Shown here piece after piece: positions 7,485-45,233 of a stretch of 64,000 bases of DNA. The stretch is from Motilimonas eburnea. Lineage in GTDB: Bacteria > Pseudomonadota > Gammaproteobacteria > Enterobacterales > CBDFNC01. The stretch lies in assembly GCF_021295345.1 (NCBI RefSeq), contig NZ_JAIMJB010000002.1:248001-312000 (forward strand), in the 5' to 3' direction. Position 1 is the stretch's first letter. Each line of letters begins with the position of its first letter. A program made the translations under genes and the position numbers. Below the pieces are notes generated by a model. The model saw nothing but the letters and a program-made list of their open reading frames with translations, ran no database searches and had not been told where the DNA came from.

Positions 7485-7517
7485 GATAAAGCTAACCTAA
7501 GGTTAGCTTTATCATTT
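7485..7517. terminator. Hairpin terminator after DUF3334 gene
   Basis: A perfect 13-bp stem (7485-7497 with 7501-7513) with loop TAA, followed by ATTT and a T-rich stretch on the plus strand. It insulates the DUF3334 gene from the polyamine leader. The T run is imperfect, so efficiency is uncertain. Confidence 0.8.
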
Positions 7518-7653
7518 CTTTTGCGAATCATTTTGGCCGTCTAAACATCCCATTTTCCCTCGCCAGCAACCTAGCATAACCCTATGAAACATAAGGGATA
7601 ATTGAGCTTACTATTTTTAACGTAAATTTTTCTCGTTTCTATTAAAAATATAC

Positions 7654-7681
7654 TTGCACATTTAGTCATATGTGGTATTTT
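7654..7681 (+). promoter_or_regulatory. Candidate promoter of the polyamine operon
   Basis: TTGCAC at 7654-7659 and TATTTT at 7676-7681 are separated by 16 bp. A start near 7688 would give a leader of about 450 nt before dat, covering all the hairpins and the leader peptide. It was found by eye and other starts are possible. Confidence 0.4.
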
Positions 7682-7915
7682 TGCGCCGCTTTTTAACATC
7701 CGTCATGTTAATCTTAACGACGAAAAAGTGTGAGATAGGAAGATCGCTTAGCTTGATAAACGTCAAGTTGGTGATAAAATGAGCAGCCCTTGCTGTGCGG
7801 CCTTAATCTGCACAGACAAGATAATCGGTATGGGGTAACCAGCCCCCGTAATAGTAGGGATAGTGAACGGACTGGATGACTCCAGCTCTATCATTAACAG
7901 ATTTAGGAGCCCGAA

Positions 7916-7987
7916 ATGATTATGATCTCTCAACAGACCAACCTATATCCGGCCATCAGTCTATTTTGCCTGATGCCAGAGCCTTGA
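7916..7987 (+). CDS. Candidate regulatory leader peptide (23 aa, ends Pro-stop)
   Basis: ATG at 7916 is preceded by TTTAGGAG with 6-7 nt spacing. The frame encodes 23 residues starting MIMISQQTNLYPAIS and ending CLMPEP, then UGA. A terminal Pro before UGA is the hallmark of the TnaC arrest peptide, where slow RF2-dependent release is the sensor step. Here the setting is a polyamine biosynthesis operon, and polyamines are known to act on leader-peptide termination in other systems. The last codons form a hairpin (7951-7959 with 7970-7977) that a stalled ribosome would melt. Function is inferred from position, start signal and ending. Confidence 0.55.
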   Translation: MIMISQQTNLYPAISLFCLMPEP

Positions 7988-8071
7988 TCGCCCCTTACTC
8001 AATTTAAATTTCTCCCTTCTGTATCGCTTTGTGATAAGCATTGCTTTATGCAGGGGTTTTCCTTTTTATTC

Positions 8072-8107
8072 GCTAATTGCCGATACCTACATTGGCAGGC
8101 AATTAGC
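8072..8107 (+). promoter_or_regulatory. Perfect 10-bp inverted repeat upstream of dat
   Basis: GCTAATTGCC (8072-8081) and GGCAATTAGC (8098-8107) form a stem with a 16-nt loop, 30 nt before the dat ATG. It has no T run on the plus strand, so it is not a simple terminator for the operon. It could be an RNA stem affecting dat translation or a protein-binding operator. Confidence 0.5.
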
Positions 8108-8137
8108 ACAAAAAATTTATTGTTGGGATAAACCAGT

Positions 8138-9541
8138 ATGAATAACGTTGTTAACCTAGGGGTTGAGGAGCTAATCCAAGACCAAATGATCCCTGAATTC
8201 AAAGAAGTGTATGACTTAACACCAGATAATGTATTGTTAAGCCAGGAGCACTATGAATCAGAAGTACGCTCTTACCCAAGACGTTTCCCGATTGCTATTG
8301 GGCACGCAAAAGGGGTGCTGGTACAAGATACTAAAGGCCAAACTTTCCTAGATTGTTTAGCGGGAGCCGGTGCATTACCGCTGGGCTACAATCACCCTGA
8401 AATTAATCAGGAAATCATTGCCAAATTAAATTCGGGCGTGCCTTATCAAACCCTTGATATAACAACACCGACCAAGGATGCCTTCATCAAGGAAGTCATG
8501 GACTTTTTGCCATCTGAATTTGCCAAAGAAGCATGTATTCAGTTTTGTGGTCCATCAGGAGCCGATGCGGTAGAAGCGGCGATCAAGCTCGCTAAACTTT
8601 ACACAGGTCGCAACACCATTGCCTCTTTCCACGGCGCTTACCACGGTATGACTAATGGTTCACTGGCATTAACAGGCAACCTAAACGCGAAAGAGCGTCG
8701 CACAGGTCTGATGTCTGACGTGCACTTCTTCCCGTTTCCATACTCATTGCGTTGTAAGTTTGGTTTAGGCGGTGAAGCCGGTGATAAAGCCTCTATTCGC
8801 TATATTGAATCGGTATTACATGACCAAGAAAGCGGTATTGTTAAGCCAGCGGCTATCATCCTTGAGCCAATTCAAGGTGAAGGCGGTGTTATTCCTGCCT
8901 CTGTTACTTGGCTAAAAGAGTTAAGACGCATTACCGAAGAGCTAGGTATTCTATTGATTTTCGATGAAATTCAATGTGGTGTTGGTCGTTCGGGCCGTAA
9001 CTTTGCATTTGAATACGCAGGGGTTGAGCCAGATGTCGTGATCATGTCTAAAGCCATTGGTGGTGGTCTACCCCTGTCATGTTTAGTATTTAAGAAAAAA
9101 TTTGACCGCTGGAATGCCGGTGAACATACCGGGACGTTCCGTGGAAACCAACTAGCCATGGCCACCGGCACAAAAGCCCTACAAATAATCAAGCGCGATA
9201 ATCTGGTTGAAAACGCCCTGAACATGGGTCAGCGTTTAACCGAGAAACTTAACGAATTACAAGCTGAACAAGCGTGTATTGCAGAAGTACGCGGTAAAGG
9301 CCTAATGATAGGCATTGAAATCGTTAAACCGGGTGAAGTCAATGCTTTAGGTGAGCCACTAGCTAACCCAGAACTAGCTGCGCGTATTCAACGCGCCGCC
9401 CTAGAGCGTGGTTTGATCATTGAAAAAGGCGGTCGTCACGGCGCGGTATTACGTTTCTTACCTCCTTTGATCATTAACGAAGAACAAATTGACTATGCAG
9501 CATGGGCATTTGCTGAAGCAGTTAAAGTGTGCGCGGAGTAA
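8138..9541 (+). CDS. dat: L-2,4-diaminobutyrate:2-oxoglutarate aminotransferase
   Basis: This class III PLP aminotransferase makes L-2,4-diaminobutyrate from aspartate 4-semialdehyde with glutamate as donor, the first step toward 1,3-diaminopropane and norspermidine. The 467-residue protein shows LAGAGALPLGYNHPE, the PLP phosphate site CGPSGADAVEAAIKLA, EPIQGEGGVIP, the cofactor aspartate in IFDEIQCGVGR and the Schiff-base lysine in SKAIGGGLPLSC. Assignment among class III enzymes rests on the adjacent diaminobutyrate decarboxylase. In Vibrio I recall these two activities on one fused polypeptide; here they are separate genes 5 nt apart in different frames. Confidence 0.93.
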   Translation: MNNVVNLGVEELIQDQMIPEFKEVYDLTPDNVLLSQEHYESEVRSYPRRFPIAIGHAKGVLVQDTKGQTFLDCLAGAGALPLGYNHPEINQEIIAKLNSGVPYQTLDITTPTKDAFIKEVMDFLPSEFAKEACIQFCGPSGADAVEAAIKLAKLYTGRNTIASFHGAYHGMTNGSLALTGNLNAKERRTGLMSDVHFFPFPYSLRCKFGLGGEAGDKASIRYIESVLHDQESGIVKPAAIILEPIQGEGGVIPASVTWLKELRRITEELGILLIFDEIQCGVGRSGRNFAFEYAGVEPDVVIMSKAIGGGLPLSCLVFKKKFDRWNAGEHTGTFRGNQLAMATGTKALQIIKRDNLVENALNMGQRLTEKLNELQAEQACIAEVRGKGLMIGIEIVKPGEVNALGEPLANPELAARIQRAALERGLIIEKGGRHGAVLRFLPPLIINEEQIDYAAWAFAEAVKVCAE

Positions 9542-9546
9542 GTTAA

Positions 9547-11004
9547 GTGAATAATTGGCAACAACATTTTATTCAAGTTGGCCAACACGGTAGCGACAGC
9601 TACCGTGACGCAATGCAGCAAAGTGTTGCACAACTTGTGCAGTTATTTGAAACAACCGAAAAGCCCTACTCTGCGATGGACGCCAATACACTGCAACAAG
9701 CCGTGTATAATTTGTCCTTAGACCAAGCACAGGTTGCTCCCTTATCACAAGTGATTGCGGAAACCGCCGAAATCGTTGCCCGCAATGCCATTGTTGTGCA
9801 ACACCCTGACTGTATTGCTCATTTACATACGCCTCCCCTGATTGCGGGTATTGCTGCCGAGAACTTTATTGCTGCGCAAAACCAATCGATGGATTCATGG
9901 GATCAATCAGCGTCAGCGACTTACGTTGAACAATACGTCACGGATTGGTTATGCAACAAGTTTGGCTTTGACCAACACAGTGATGGGGTATTCACCAGTG
10001 GTGGCACCCAAAGTAACATCATGGCGCTGTTGATGGCACGCGATTGGGCTGCCGATGTGATGTCCGGTCATAACATTCAAAAAGATGGGTTACCGGAATA
10101 CGCCAGTAAATTGCGTATCTTATGTTCAACCAAAAGCCATTTCACCGTTAAAAAAGCAGCATCTATCATGGGCTTAGGTGAGGAAGCAGTGGTGCGTGTG
10201 CCAACCAACCGCGATGGCACAATAATTATCAGTGCGTTATCTGACACCCTAGCGCAATTAAAAGAAGCTGAGCTGATCCCATTTGTTGTTGTTGGCACGG
10301 CTGGCACAACCGATCATGGCGCCATTGATAACCTGACAGCCATCCGTGAACTGGCTGACCAATACAAAATTTGGTTCCATGTTGACGCGGCTTATGGTGG
10401 TGCCTTGATGTTAAGTCAAGCTAAAACACGCCTAGCGGGGATTGAAACAGCGGATTCGATCACGGTGGATTTTCACAAACTGTGGTTTCAACCAGTCAGT
10501 TGTAGTGCAGTCATGCTTAAAGATAAGTCTAACTTTAAGTACTTATTGCACCATGCTGACTACTTAAACCGTGAAAGTGATGACTTGCCAAACTTGGTGG
10601 ACAAAACCATCTCGACCACACGTCGATTTGATGCATTGAAAGTGCTTATGACGCTACGGGCGGTGGGCAGTGACACCTTAGGAGCCATGATCGATCACTT
10701 GTTGGCACAATCTCAGCAAGTGGCGGCTTTGGTCAACGCCCACCCTGAGTTTGAGTTATTAACCGAGCCGCCTTTATCAACCATACTGTTTCGCTACGTT
10801 GGCCAATGCAACTCAAATAACATTGACGAATTTAACCGTCAATTACGGGTGCAATTGCTAAAAGCAGGTATAGCGGTTTTAGGGGAAACAACCGTAGATG
10901 GTCAAGCTGCATTAAAGCTCACCATTTTAAACCCTTGTTTAACACTGAACAATTTTAACGAGCTATTCGATAAGATCGTCAAATTTGCGAAAGCGCTTAA
11001 ATAA
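9547..11004 (+). CDS. ddc: L-2,4-diaminobutyrate decarboxylase
   Basis: A group II PLP decarboxylase of 485 residues that converts L-2,4-diaminobutyrate to 1,3-diaminopropane. It shows FTSGGTQSNIMALLMARDW (PLP phosphate binding), FHVDAAYGGALML with the cofactor aspartate, and the Schiff-base lysine in VDFHKLWFQPVSCSA. The start is GTG at 9547. GGAG at 9535-9538, inside the last codons of dat, is its ribosome binding site, so the two are translationally coupled. The substrate is inferred from family and operon, since glutamate and aromatic decarboxylases share the fold. Confidence 0.93.
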   Translation: MNNWQQHFIQVGQHGSDSYRDAMQQSVAQLVQLFETTEKPYSAMDANTLQQAVYNLSLDQAQVAPLSQVIAETAEIVARNAIVVQHPDCIAHLHTPPLIAGIAAENFIAAQNQSMDSWDQSASATYVEQYVTDWLCNKFGFDQHSDGVFTSGGTQSNIMALLMARDWAADVMSGHNIQKDGLPEYASKLRILCSTKSHFTVKKAASIMGLGEEAVVRVPTNRDGTIIISALSDTLAQLKEAELIPFVVVGTAGTTDHGAIDNLTAIRELADQYKIWFHVDAAYGGALMLSQAKTRLAGIETADSITVDFHKLWFQPVSCSAVMLKDKSNFKYLLHHADYLNRESDDLPNLVDKTISTTRRFDALKVLMTLRAVGSDTLGAMIDHLLAQSQQVAALVNAHPEFELLTEPPLSTILFRYVGQCNSNNIDEFNRQLRVQLLKAGIAVLGETTVDGQAALKLTILNPCLTLNNFNELFDKIVKFAKALK

Positions 11005-11019
11005 TTTTTAGGAAATACT

Positions 11020-12240
11020 ATGTCAGTTTTACAAATAGGAGCCGGCGGGGTCGGATGGGTAATTGCACATAAATGTGCTCAAAATAACGATGTTTTTGGT
11101 GATATTACCATCGCCTCGCGCAATATTGAGAAGTGTGAAAAGATCATTTCATCTATTGCGTTACGCGATAATCAAAAAGACAAAAATGCAAGTATCACGG
11201 CAGCACAAGTGGATGCCGACGATTTAGACGCATTAGTTAAACTGATTAAAGAAGTACAGCCAAAACTGGTCATTAATGCAGGGCCGCCGTGGGTGAATGT
11301 CACCATCATGGAAGCCTGTTATCAAACCAAATCGGCTTATTTAGATACCTCGGTTGCCACTGATTTATGCAGCCCAGGCCAACAAGTACCAGAAGCGTAC
11401 GATCCACAATGGGCATTTCGTGAGAAATTCGCGCAGGCTGGTATCACAGGTATTCTCGGCGCAGGCTTTGATCCAGGCGTGGTCAGTGTGTTTGCTACCT
11501 ACGCGCACAAACACCTGTTTGACGAGATTGACTCCATTGATGTAATGGATGTCAATGCTGGCGATCACGGTCGTAAATTCGCGACCAACTTCGACCCAGA
11601 AACCAACATGCTGGAAATTCAAGGTGATTCATTCTACTTTGAAAACAATGAATGGCATCAAGTACCTTGTCATAGCCGCGTATTAGAATTTGATTTCCCT
11701 GTTGTCGGTAAACAAAAAGTGTATTCGATGGCACACGATGAAGTCCGTTCACTGGCCGAGTTTATCCCAGCCAAACGTATTGAATTTTGGATGGGCTTCT
11801 CAGATCGCTATCTGAACTACTTCAATGTCATGCGCGACATTGGCTTACTCAGTCCAGATCCCATTAATGTTGACGGCGTTGAAATCCAGCCCCTTCGCGT
11901 ACTTAAAGCCTTGTTGCCCGATCCTACTTCGTTAGCACCCGGTTATACAGGTAAAACCTGTATCGGTACTTGGCTACAAGGTAAAAAAGACGGCCAGCCT
12001 CGCAGCGTCTTTATTTACAACATTTGTGACCACGCTGAGGCTTATCAAGAAGTAGAACATCAGGCCATTTCTTACACCACAGGTGTACCGGCCATCACGG
12101 CGGCACTTTTATACTTCAAAGGTAAGTGGTCAGAGTCTGGCTTGTTCAATGTCGAACAACTCAACCCTGATGACTTCCTTGAGCTGATGCCTGAAATCGG
12201 CTTAAGCTGGGAAGTTCAAGAGCTGACGCCTAGCGCGTAA
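11020..12240 (+). CDS. Carboxynorspermidine (carboxyspermidine) dehydrogenase
   Basis: A saccharopine-dehydrogenase-like enzyme of 406 residues. It reductively condenses aspartate semialdehyde with diaminopropane (or putrescine) to carboxynorspermidine (or carboxyspermidine) using NADPH. The N-terminal Rossmann loop is VLQIGAGGVGWVIAHKCAQ; LVINAGPPWVNVTIMEAC and GILGAGFDPGVVSVFATYA are family blocks. An AGGAAA motif precedes the ATG, 15 nt after ddc. An intrinsic terminator follows immediately, so nspC may be expressed at a lower level. Confidence 0.92.
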   Translation: MSVLQIGAGGVGWVIAHKCAQNNDVFGDITIASRNIEKCEKIISSIALRDNQKDKNASITAAQVDADDLDALVKLIKEVQPKLVINAGPPWVNVTIMEACYQTKSAYLDTSVATDLCSPGQQVPEAYDPQWAFREKFAQAGITGILGAGFDPGVVSVFATYAHKHLFDEIDSIDVMDVNAGDHGRKFATNFDPETNMLEIQGDSFYFENNEWHQVPCHSRVLEFDFPVVGKQKVYSMAHDEVRSLAEFIPAKRIEFWMGFSDRYLNYFNVMRDIGLLSPDPINVDGVEIQPLRVLKALLPDPTSLAPGYTGKTCIGTWLQGKKDGQPRSVFIYNICDHAEAYQEVEHQAISYTTGVPAITAALLYFKGKWSESGLFNVEQLNPDDFLELMPEIGLSWEVQELTPSA

Positions 12241-12295: not shown

Positions 12296-13423
12296 ATGAA
12301 CGAACTTGCAACCCCCTACTTCATGATCCATGAAGACAAATTAATTGAAAACCTTGAAAAGTGTCAGCGCTTAAAAGAATTAAGTGGCGTTAAATTGGTT
12401 CTTGCCCTGAAATGCTTTTCGACTTGGGGTGTGTTTAAAACCATCGAGCCTTACCTTGATGGCACAACCAGTAGTGGCCCTTATGAAGTGATGCTTGGCT
12501 ACGAAACCTTTGGTAAAGAAACCCATGCTTACAGCGTAGGTTACAGTGAGCAAGATGTTATTGATGTTGCAGACAAAAGTGACAAAATCATATTTAACTC
12601 GCAATCGCAGCTGTCTCGTTACGCCCATTTAGTGCCTGATACTTGTAAAATTGGCCTGCGCATCAACCCGGAGCGTAGCGCCGCCGGTCAAGACTTGGCG
12701 GATCCCGCTCGTCCATTTTGTCGTTTGGGTGTAAAAAAGTCGGCATTAGAAAAAGACATCGCCAATAAACTGTCCGGTGTTATGTTTCACATGAATTGCG
12801 AAAATAAATCCGTTGCTTCATTCAGTGCCCTACTTGACCATATCAGTGAGAACTTTTCTGATTTACTTGAGCAATTAGAATGGGTCAGCTTAGGGGGCGG
12901 CGTCTTCTTCACCTACCCAGGCTATGATTTAGAAGGGCTCGCGGCCAAACTTAAAGCCTTTAGTGAACTACACGGGGTGCAACTTTATCTCGAGCCCGGT
13001 GAAGCCGTGATCACACGCACCACAGATCTGGTTGTTACCGTGGTTGATATCGTTGAAAACAAAAAACTGACGGCCATTGTTGATAGTGCCACCGAAGCTC
13101 ACCGCCTAGATACCTTGATATACAATGAGCCAGCGACCGTGGCTGAAGCCAGTGAAGAAGGATCACATGCTTACGTGATTGGTTCTTGCTCATGTTTGGC
13201 AGGGGATCAGTTCTGCGAAGCCAAGTTTGAAGCGCCTTTAAGTATCGGCCAACGCTTAACCATTGCTGATAGCGGCGGTTATACCATGGTTAAACTTAAT
13301 TGGTTCAACGGCATCAAGATGCCCGCTATTTATTGTCAGCGTACCGATGGGCAGATAGAGCTATTGAACAAGTTTGACTACCAAGACTTTAAACGCACAC
13401 TGTCAACTCACTCCATCAGCTAA
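12296..13423 (+). CDS. nspC: Carboxynorspermidine decarboxylase
   Basis: A fold III (alanine-racemase-like) PLP decarboxylase of 375 residues that removes CO2 from carboxynorspermidine or carboxyspermidine to give the finished triamine. The PLP lysine lies in [13 protein letters not shown] near residue 40, GLRINPERS and FHMNCENKS are substrate-side blocks, [15 protein letters not shown] binds the phosphate, and [14 protein letters not shown] holds the catalytic cysteine region. It is the last gene of the pathway. In Vibrio cholerae this gene is needed for normal biofilm formation. It follows a terminator, so its level may be set by read-through. Confidence 0.95.
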
Positions 13424-45120: not shown

Positions 45121-45233
45121 GGTGACCCTAGGGTCCTCTCGCATTGATACTCCGTGAACTCGGCCAGGACCGGAAGGTAGCAACCGCAGCGGATGACTCA
45201 AGTGCCGGGATGTGGCTTTAGGGTTACCACCCA
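45121..45233 (+). ncRNA. ffs: Signal recognition particle 4.5S RNA
   Basis: The conserved SRP apical region is clear: GGCCAGGACCGGAAGGTAGC followed by AACCGCAGCGGATGACTC and GTGCCGGGATGTGGC, matching helix 8 of bacterial SRP RNA with its GGAA tetraloop. The 5' end GGTGACCCTA (45121-45130) pairs with TAGGGTTACC (45219-45228) to close the long hairpin. Length of about 113 nt fits E. coli 4.5S RNA (114 nt). It binds Ffh and directs cotranslational membrane insertion. Ends are estimated from the closing stem. Confidence 0.95.

Follow-up and report, generated by a model that had tools for sequence, protein, structure and literature searches.

The window analysed here, a stretch of 64,000 nucleotides, carries an operon for the synthesis of norspermidine, a main polyamine of vibrios, and between the terminator-like hairpin of the upstream gene and the first gene of the operon, dat, lies a structured leader with a short open frame that has its own ribosome-binding site. 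The four genes, dat, ddc, carboxynorspermidine synthase and nspC, constitute the diaminobutyrate route to norspermidine. The preliminary description of this DNA had read the gene context in the same way, and the assignment holds, as carboxynorspermidine synthase and nspC both score over the NCBI cut-offs. The features are as follows.

7485-7513, forward strand: terminator-like hairpin of the upstream gene (13 pairs, T-rich tail), the upstream limit of the leader
7654-7681, forward strand: probable promoter, TTGCAC (7654-7659), 16 nt, TATTTT (7676-7681)
7690-7904, forward strand: structured untranslated leader with several hairpins
7827-7860, forward strand: best kept untranslated element in the genus, GGTATGGGGTAACCAGCCCCCGTAATAGTAGGGA, without a match to RF02951
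7905-7909, forward strand: Shine-Dalgarno (SD) sequence AGGAG of the leader frame, six bases before the ATG and identical in 4/4 genus genomes
7916-7987, forward strand: leader peptide frame MIMISQQTNLYPAISLFCLMPEP-UGA of 23 codons (ATG 7916, TGA 7985-7987)
7951-7977, forward strand: hairpin over the last codons of the frame (arms 7951-7959 and 7970-7977)
7988-8028, forward strand: C-rich, G-poor tract after the stop, a candidate Rho loading site
8072-8107, forward strand: perfect 10-bp inverted repeat upstream of dat, arms GCTAATTGCC (8072-8081) and GGCAATTAGC (8098-8107)
8138-9541, forward strand: dat, diaminobutyrate--2-oxoglutarate transaminase (TIGR00709, over cut-off)
9547-11004, forward strand: ddc, probable L-2,4-diaminobutyrate decarboxylase (best match NF052646, below its cut-off)
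11020-12240, forward strand: carboxynorspermidine synthase (NF043000, over cut-off)
12296-13423, forward strand: nspC, carboxynorspermidine decarboxylase (TIGR01047, over cut-off)
45128-45224: bacterial small signal recognition particle RNA (RF00169)

For the comparison within the genus we used four genomes, namely the window genome (G000), two close congeners and a more diverged fourth genome. The boxes of the promoter at 7654-7681 were read from the letters themselves and line up with those of the two close congeners, and the Psychromonas leaders are preceded by a similar CTTGCC...GATAGAAT; we count this promoter as inferred because it is absent from the output of the consensus promoter scan. 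The stretch from 7690 to 7916 folds better than 199 of 200 shuffled sequences (z -2.5). Several features noticed earlier were found again in the letters: the strong terminator before a dat leader of ~450 nt (the terminator-like hairpin at 7485-7513, with dat starting at 8138), four leader hairpins (7752-7767, 7793-7815, 7832-7846 and 7872-7885), the hairpin over the last codons of the frame and the perfect inverted repeat before the dat start, both with the arms given above, and a C-rich, G-poor stretch after the stop. Aligning the leader with its relatives had been proposed as a way to find a conserved peptide and covarying stems. The end of the peptide is kept. In the stem at 7793-7815, three pairs differ in a compensatory way between the window and its two close congeners, but in the fourth genus genome this stem and the one at 7752-7767 were both not seen at the aligned place. 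Between the window and the fourth genome the leader has mostly diverged, and what is kept comprises the element at 7827-7860, the ribosome-binding site with the first codons of the frame, and the last codons with the stop. The element reads GGTATGGGG(6 nt)GCCCCCGTAATAGTAGGGA, and its core, CCCGTAATAGTAGGG, occurs with up to 1 mismatch once per genome in 4/4 genus genomes, only in the leader.

The leader frame and its Glu-Pro-UGA end

The 23-codon frame with a good ribosome-binding site and the end CLMPEP-UGA, claimed from the window alone, is seen in the sequence, with the start of the frame now corrected to 7916. In the window the peptide ends with Met-Pro-Glu-Pro-UGA; the peptide of the two close congeners is MIMISQQTNLHPVTSQFCLVPEP-UGA and that of the fourth genome MIIFSTTNQYLKVKRTFIIVPEP-UGA, and AGGAGCCCGAAATG precedes the leader frame in the congeners and the fourth genome alike. 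By script count, the EP-UGA end occurs in the 64-kb window in one frame alone among 33 SD-led short-frame matches, a number that includes the leader frame twice as two SD patterns match it. In its own genome a pattern of SD, start and EP-UGA matches once, at the leader locus, and the reversed-pattern control also gives 1. Applied to 10 genomes, the same pattern, whose spacing is too short for most Psychromonas frames, shows the leader in 4/4 genus genomes, with one further match in G001 and two in G003, and the reversed controls in the four genus genomes give 1 to 6. Weak support for the hairpin at 7951-7977 comes from a single compensatory exchange, T-A to C-G, found in the two close congeners; both of the affected codons change nonsynonymously.

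We searched for GARCCNTGA within about 1.1 kb upstream of dat homologues. Among the named loci, which are the best 80 of 588 dat matches, a Glu-Pro-UGA frame precedes dat at 50/50 loci from Psychromonas, Photobacterium, Vibrio, Enterovibrio and Grimontia, and at 0/30 of the others (Massilia, Pseudomonas, Nitrospira etc.; one of these, L012 of Massilia frigida, was left out of the 50/50). The antisense strand of the same 50 loci contains 2 GARCCNTGA matches in 57,560 bases. In the genomes of the order, Glu-Pro-UGA stands at dat in 4/4 genomes of the window's family f1 (those of the window genus), at 23 of the 24 primary dat copies of family f12, and at 22/22 fetched of the 29 in family f21, whose remaining 7 genomes also carry the frame; the other families show it at 0/18 dat loci (five families; 18 of the 50 genomes with a dat match), and two paralogous dat copies (L169, L170) at 0/2. 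The counts of named loci and of order genomes must not be added because the two sets overlap, and the dat loci are related by descent. The invariance of the letters among the matches follows by construction because the search required GARCCNTGA, and the hit rate alone is independent. The f12 exception, L153, has no Glu-Pro-UGA end in 367 nt and belongs to a fragmented genome, and L130 has the Glu-Pro-UGA end and lacks a clear in-frame start. In family f2 (L214-L217), where the same four genes are arranged as ddc, synthase, nspC and dat, no Glu-Pro-UGA was found in the 1.4-1.8 kb before ddc at 4/4 loci. Absence of the frame and its last residues from relatives had been set beforehand as one part of the grounds for refutation; both are kept, with Glu-Pro-UGA running across three families, and the earlier reading of the leader as a polyamine sensor is thereby supported in part. 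The observation of a Pro-UGA leader frame is confirmed, and its conservation is stronger than could be seen from the window alone.

In three clades the leader frame shows the substitution pattern of coding sequence, with pN/pS at 0.33-0.39 compared with 0.8-2.0 in shifted frames. The calculation covered Photobacterium/Enterovibrio, the window genus, a single type of Psychromonas frame and, from Vibrio, the frames with 28 codons. For the Vibrio frames (23 distinct), pN/pS is 0.35 over codons 2-28 and 0.79 and 2.03 in the shifted frames; selection on the peptide is strongest at the C-terminus, with 0.23 over codons 13-28 vs 0.58 over codons 2-12. The values are 0.39 for Photobacterium/Enterovibrio (15 distinct; shifted 1.62 and 1.08) and 0.33 for Psychromonas (9 distinct; shifted 1.07 and 1.27). 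In the window genus the contrast is weak (0.73 vs 0.87 and 1.20, from three distinct sequences), and the case there therefore rests on the common start and end of the frame.

The codons themselves vary among 85 distinct leaders. The codon before Glu encodes Thr in 73 (using all four codons), Val in 9 and Pro in 3, Glu is written as GAA in 62 and GAG in 23, and the final Pro as CCT in 76, CCG in 7 and CCC in 2, while the UGA stop and the C-terminal Pro are present in 85/85 by construction of the search. With a permissive test that took the best of all in-frame starts, an SD-like match and an in-frame start were found in 88 of 89 distinct leaders, the one without being L130, and the starts are TTG in 44, ATG in 27 and GTG in 17; part of Vibrio has a second candidate start, an ATG in the same frame that precedes the TTG by 15 nt. 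The peptides are about 21 to 52 codons long, and from one clade to another the N-terminal two thirds differ. The motif ..SFVLPxC..ITEP is common to many vibrio peptides and was not found in the Psychromonas and window-genus peptides examined. Psychromonas peptides fall into several unlike forms, and Glu-Pro-UGA is the sole part common to the peptides of all clades.

The pattern searches made no second operon with the same peptide evident. The pattern ATHACNGARCCNTGA occurs at 14 places in 8 genomes, 7 of which are the dat leader (reversed control, 9). The sole Met-starting short frame among the other 7 places, L239, lies by eye inside a chemotaxis-receptor gene and was rejected. For ACCCAAC..GARCCTTGA, 31 places were listed over 394 genomes; coordinates and sequence identify 9 of them as the vibrio dat leader.

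RF02951 upstream of the frame and the sequence downstream of it

At ten loci tested, the Rfam family RF02951 (DABA-DC-AT), an orphan RNA, matches 6/6 Vibrionaceae leaders with 66.5 to 148.4 bits against a gathering score of 56.1, and has no match at the two Psychromonas and two congener loci. At 6/6 Vibrionaceae loci the model ends on the base before the TTG/GTG start of the frame, and because it ends there the RNA reaches over the ribosome-binding site of the frame, which is contained in the conserved 3' GGGAAACCCAACA (L031, L032, L040, L049, L020, L026, L089-L104). RF02951, catalogued as a free-standing RNA motif, thus borders directly on the start codon of a conserved leader frame. Among the genomes of the order it is present in 16 of 247, all of them f21, and a Glu-Pro-UGA frame follows 15 of these 16 copies. 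At the sixteenth copy (L101, in G218) the RNA and the frame start are still present, and the frame end, dat and part of ddc have been lost; this locus is a decayed norspermidine operon, the remainder of which has broken frames. At L099 (G153) dat has largely disappeared, with a short remnant continuing into ddc, and both RF02951 and the Glu-Pro-UGA frame are kept; the presence of the frame is therefore not tied to dat as such.

We also built a covariance model of the 3' part of RF02951 from 27 Vibrionaceae leaders. The window leader was rejected as a member of the family by both models: the Rfam model gives no match at E up to 10 (7600-8200), and with our 3'-part model the best sense-strand score is 5.4 bits, which is no match. 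RF02951 was found in 0/4 genomes of the window genus, and neither model found it in the Psychromonas leaders tested. Because the RNA was not found outside vibrios, where the frame persists, the frame is the wider shared part, and by this comparison of sequences RF02951 would be a vibrio addition, or would have changed beyond recognition elsewhere. No paper was found in the open-access literature under the motif name DABA-DC-AT.

After the stop, the 40 nt from 7989 to 8028 have a C excess (C minus G) of 11 and 3 G, a value that 0.7% of the 40-nt windows on both strands reach, the length having been chosen post hoc; over 80 nt after the stop the C excess is reached by 15% of windows and is unremarkable. 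Across loci, the mean C/G contents in these 80 nt are 0.23/0.14 in the window genus (4), 0.22/0.11 in Psychromonas (29), 0.26/0.20 in the Enterovibrio group (8), 0.22/0.18 in Photobacterium (8) and 0.20/0.20 in Vibrio (50), compared with 0.23/0.15, 0.29/0.21 and 0.24/0.21 after E. coli tnaC, speFL and mdtU. The case for a Rho step is weakened in Vibrio because C is not above G there. No intrinsic terminator consistently follows the frame across the 99 loci scanned; a weak hairpin with a T-rich stretch was found in 12 of them, including three of the window genus. Between the stop and the dat start there are 97-361 nt. Among 20 chosen Vibrio leaders, covariation supports a hairpin that begins about 18-22 nt past the stop: each of its six pairs has changes on both sides (a result equalled in 27 of 500 shuffles), the share of paired cells is 79.8%, and the covariation score is reached by 0/500 shuffles. 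Its consensus fold is weak (-0.08 kcal/mol) and no consistent T-run stands behind it.

A putative ribosome-based switch and its alternatives

Judged from these comparisons, the leader frame is very probably a ribosome-based switch for polyamine synthesis that responds to a putative signal. The observed base of this model is the frame with its ribosome-binding site, the selection on the peptide in three clades and the near-invariant Glu-Pro-UGA in three families. We think it reasonably probable that slow release at Glu-Pro-UGA reports the polyamine or pathway status and thereby controls premature, probably Rho-dependent, termination in the manner of TnaC. The working part of the frame would be its end. 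A ribosome that has made the peptide would hold peptidyl-tRNA(Pro) in the P site with UGA in the A site, release by RF2 would be slow, and the polyamine or pathway state of the cell would set the time the ribosome dwells there. A ribosome that stays could cover the C-rich stretch after the stop and/or alter the leader fold, and RNA polymerase would continue into dat; once the ribosome leaves, Rho, or a fold hiding the dat start, would shut the operon off. The simplest sign for a biosynthetic operon would be that a shortage of polyamine, or a high level of precursor, makes the ribosome stay and turns the operon on. In this model we infer that the frame is translated and that the ribosome stalls, as well as the ligand, the direction of the response and the part played by Rho.

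Most weight falls on release-controlled premature termination because the anatomy, with its SD-led short frame, fixed Pro-UGA and, in the window genus, post-stop composition, resembles the TnaC, mdtU and SpeFL leaders. Glu-Pro belongs to the dipeptides that, at the C-terminus, promote trans-translation at stop codons, which indicates slow release (PMC3985003). If RF2 is unable to act, TnaC arrests the ribosome with Pro24 in the P site and UGA in the A site, and this stalled ribosome hides a Rho site (PMC8429421). E. coli mdtUJI is controlled by a leader frame, spermidine and Rho (PMC7815308). The leader described here is similar to TnaC of E. coli in its length (23 vs 24 codons), in its Pro-UGA with the same CCT-TGA end, in the C-rich, G-poor stretch after the stop and in its control of an amino-acid-derived pathway. 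The two differ in the penultimate residue, which is Glu here and Arg in TnaC, and no sequence relation was seen by eye; the operon is biosynthetic here and catabolic in TnaC, the stall here is putative, and TnaC has critical sensor residues, whereas the leader peptides share no Trp/Asp sensor residues with it and, by eye, those examined have no TnaC sensor motif of the WFNID type (PMC8429421). SpeFL (ornithine, speF) and MdtU (spermidine, mdtJI) are alike in that their leader frames tie a polyamine or precursor level to premature termination, but they serve other genes and neither ends in Glu-Pro-UGA, SpeFL ending NAR-UAG and MdtU RNAL-stop; a relationship of the leader to E. coli MdtU was rejected on this ending. 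The leader is a candidate of the TnaC/SpeFL type, with a short frame led by a ribosome-binding site and with selection on the peptide, and its ligand-responsive stall is putative. RF02951 shares with it the operon in Vibrionaceae, directly before the same frame, but that family's model stops before the frame and has no match in the window, the congeners or the tested Psychromonas. In the yeast HOL1 leader, which ends in Pro-Ser-stop, polyamine likewise acts at release from a fixed C-terminal motif and stop; HOL1, however, involves eukaryotic scanning and ribosome queuing, an importer gene and another dipeptide.

A further possibility, which we hold tentatively, is that termination itself is the sensor: polyamine would be read through the release rate at Glu-Pro-UGA, by way of RF2, EF-P or polyamines at the peptidyl-transferase centre, with no ligand pocket in the peptide, and in vibrios RF02951 would gate initiation to make a two-layer switch. 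This reading was kept because no sensor residues run through the clades. Less plausible than the main model, in our estimate, is that within the exit tunnel the peptide binds a pathway compound, be it 2,4-diaminobutyrate, 1,3-diaminopropane or aspartate semialdehyde, which would make the switch one of substrate induction and not of end-product sensing. SpeFL offers a precedent, as ornithine stalls release at its stop (PMC8429421 and PMC7815308), and the ..SFVLPxC..ITEP of many Vibrionaceae peptides would suit a binding part, but the examined Psychromonas and window-genus peptides lack the motif despite serving the same operon.

Two other explanations appear unlikely, each to about the same degree. 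In the first, an excess of polyamine would slow release at Glu-Pro-UGA and the stalled ribosome would silence the operon, with the dat start either blocked or refolded, much as at HOL1, where release at PS* is impaired and translation falls when polyamine is high (PMC11550727, a review). The dat ribosome-binding site does lie in a small CCUU...AAGG-type hairpin in several predicted Psychromonas folds; however, the distance between the stop and the dat start is too great for direct blocking, and the bacterial stop-codon precedents, TnaC and SpeFL, switch expression on. In the predicted folds of L011, L015, L115, L129 and L130, it is the AAGGA of this site that pairs with an upstream CCUU-like stretch, which may possibly block dat translation. 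In the second, the frame would merely keep the leader translated, and control would lie with the RNA ahead of it, RF02951 in vibrios and a different fold in the window genus, as a riboswitch acting on initiation of the frame. The position of RF02951 immediately before the start at 6/6 Vibrionaceae loci would suit such an arrangement, and riboswitches combined with leader frames are known in mycobacteria (PMC11260477), yet no such RNA was found in the tested Psychromonas leaders, which keep Glu-Pro-UGA, and a mere keeper of translation would need no fixed end. That the conserved letters at the frame end form an RNA pairing element and do not act as peptide is highly improbable: the predicted consensus fold of 25 Vibrio leaders pairs ACUGAACCUU with AGGGUAGGUA of RF02951, in pairs almost invariant and so uninformative for covariation, but the codons vary synonymously with pN/pS well below 1 and no such partner was found in Psychromonas.

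Little was found in the open-access literature on the control of the cellular norspermidine level, and among the open-access matches listed there was no report of a leader peptide at a norspermidine operon. Set against those matches, the leader would represent a new family of leader peptides that acts on a new target, has a minimal invariant end and is joined in vibrios by an RNA partner. A leader peptide kept in three families at one operon is a directly testable switch, and it gives the Rfam RNA RF02951, which is without a known function, a conserved leader frame as a partner. If release at Glu-Pro-UGA is the sensor, the leader would be a bacterial counterpart of the polyamine-controlled termination at yeast HOL1, and if the two-layer reading is true, RF02951 would have a role in vibrios. 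Two observations concern the dat homologues themselves. L012, in a record from the betaproteobacterium Massilia frigida, has a dat 74% identical to that of the window, without the Glu-Pro-UGA frame, and is possibly a transfer or a contamination. In family f21 the open frames that contain the primary dat match are 964-1001 aa long, as a dat-ddc fusion would be expected to be; dat and ddc are separate in the window.
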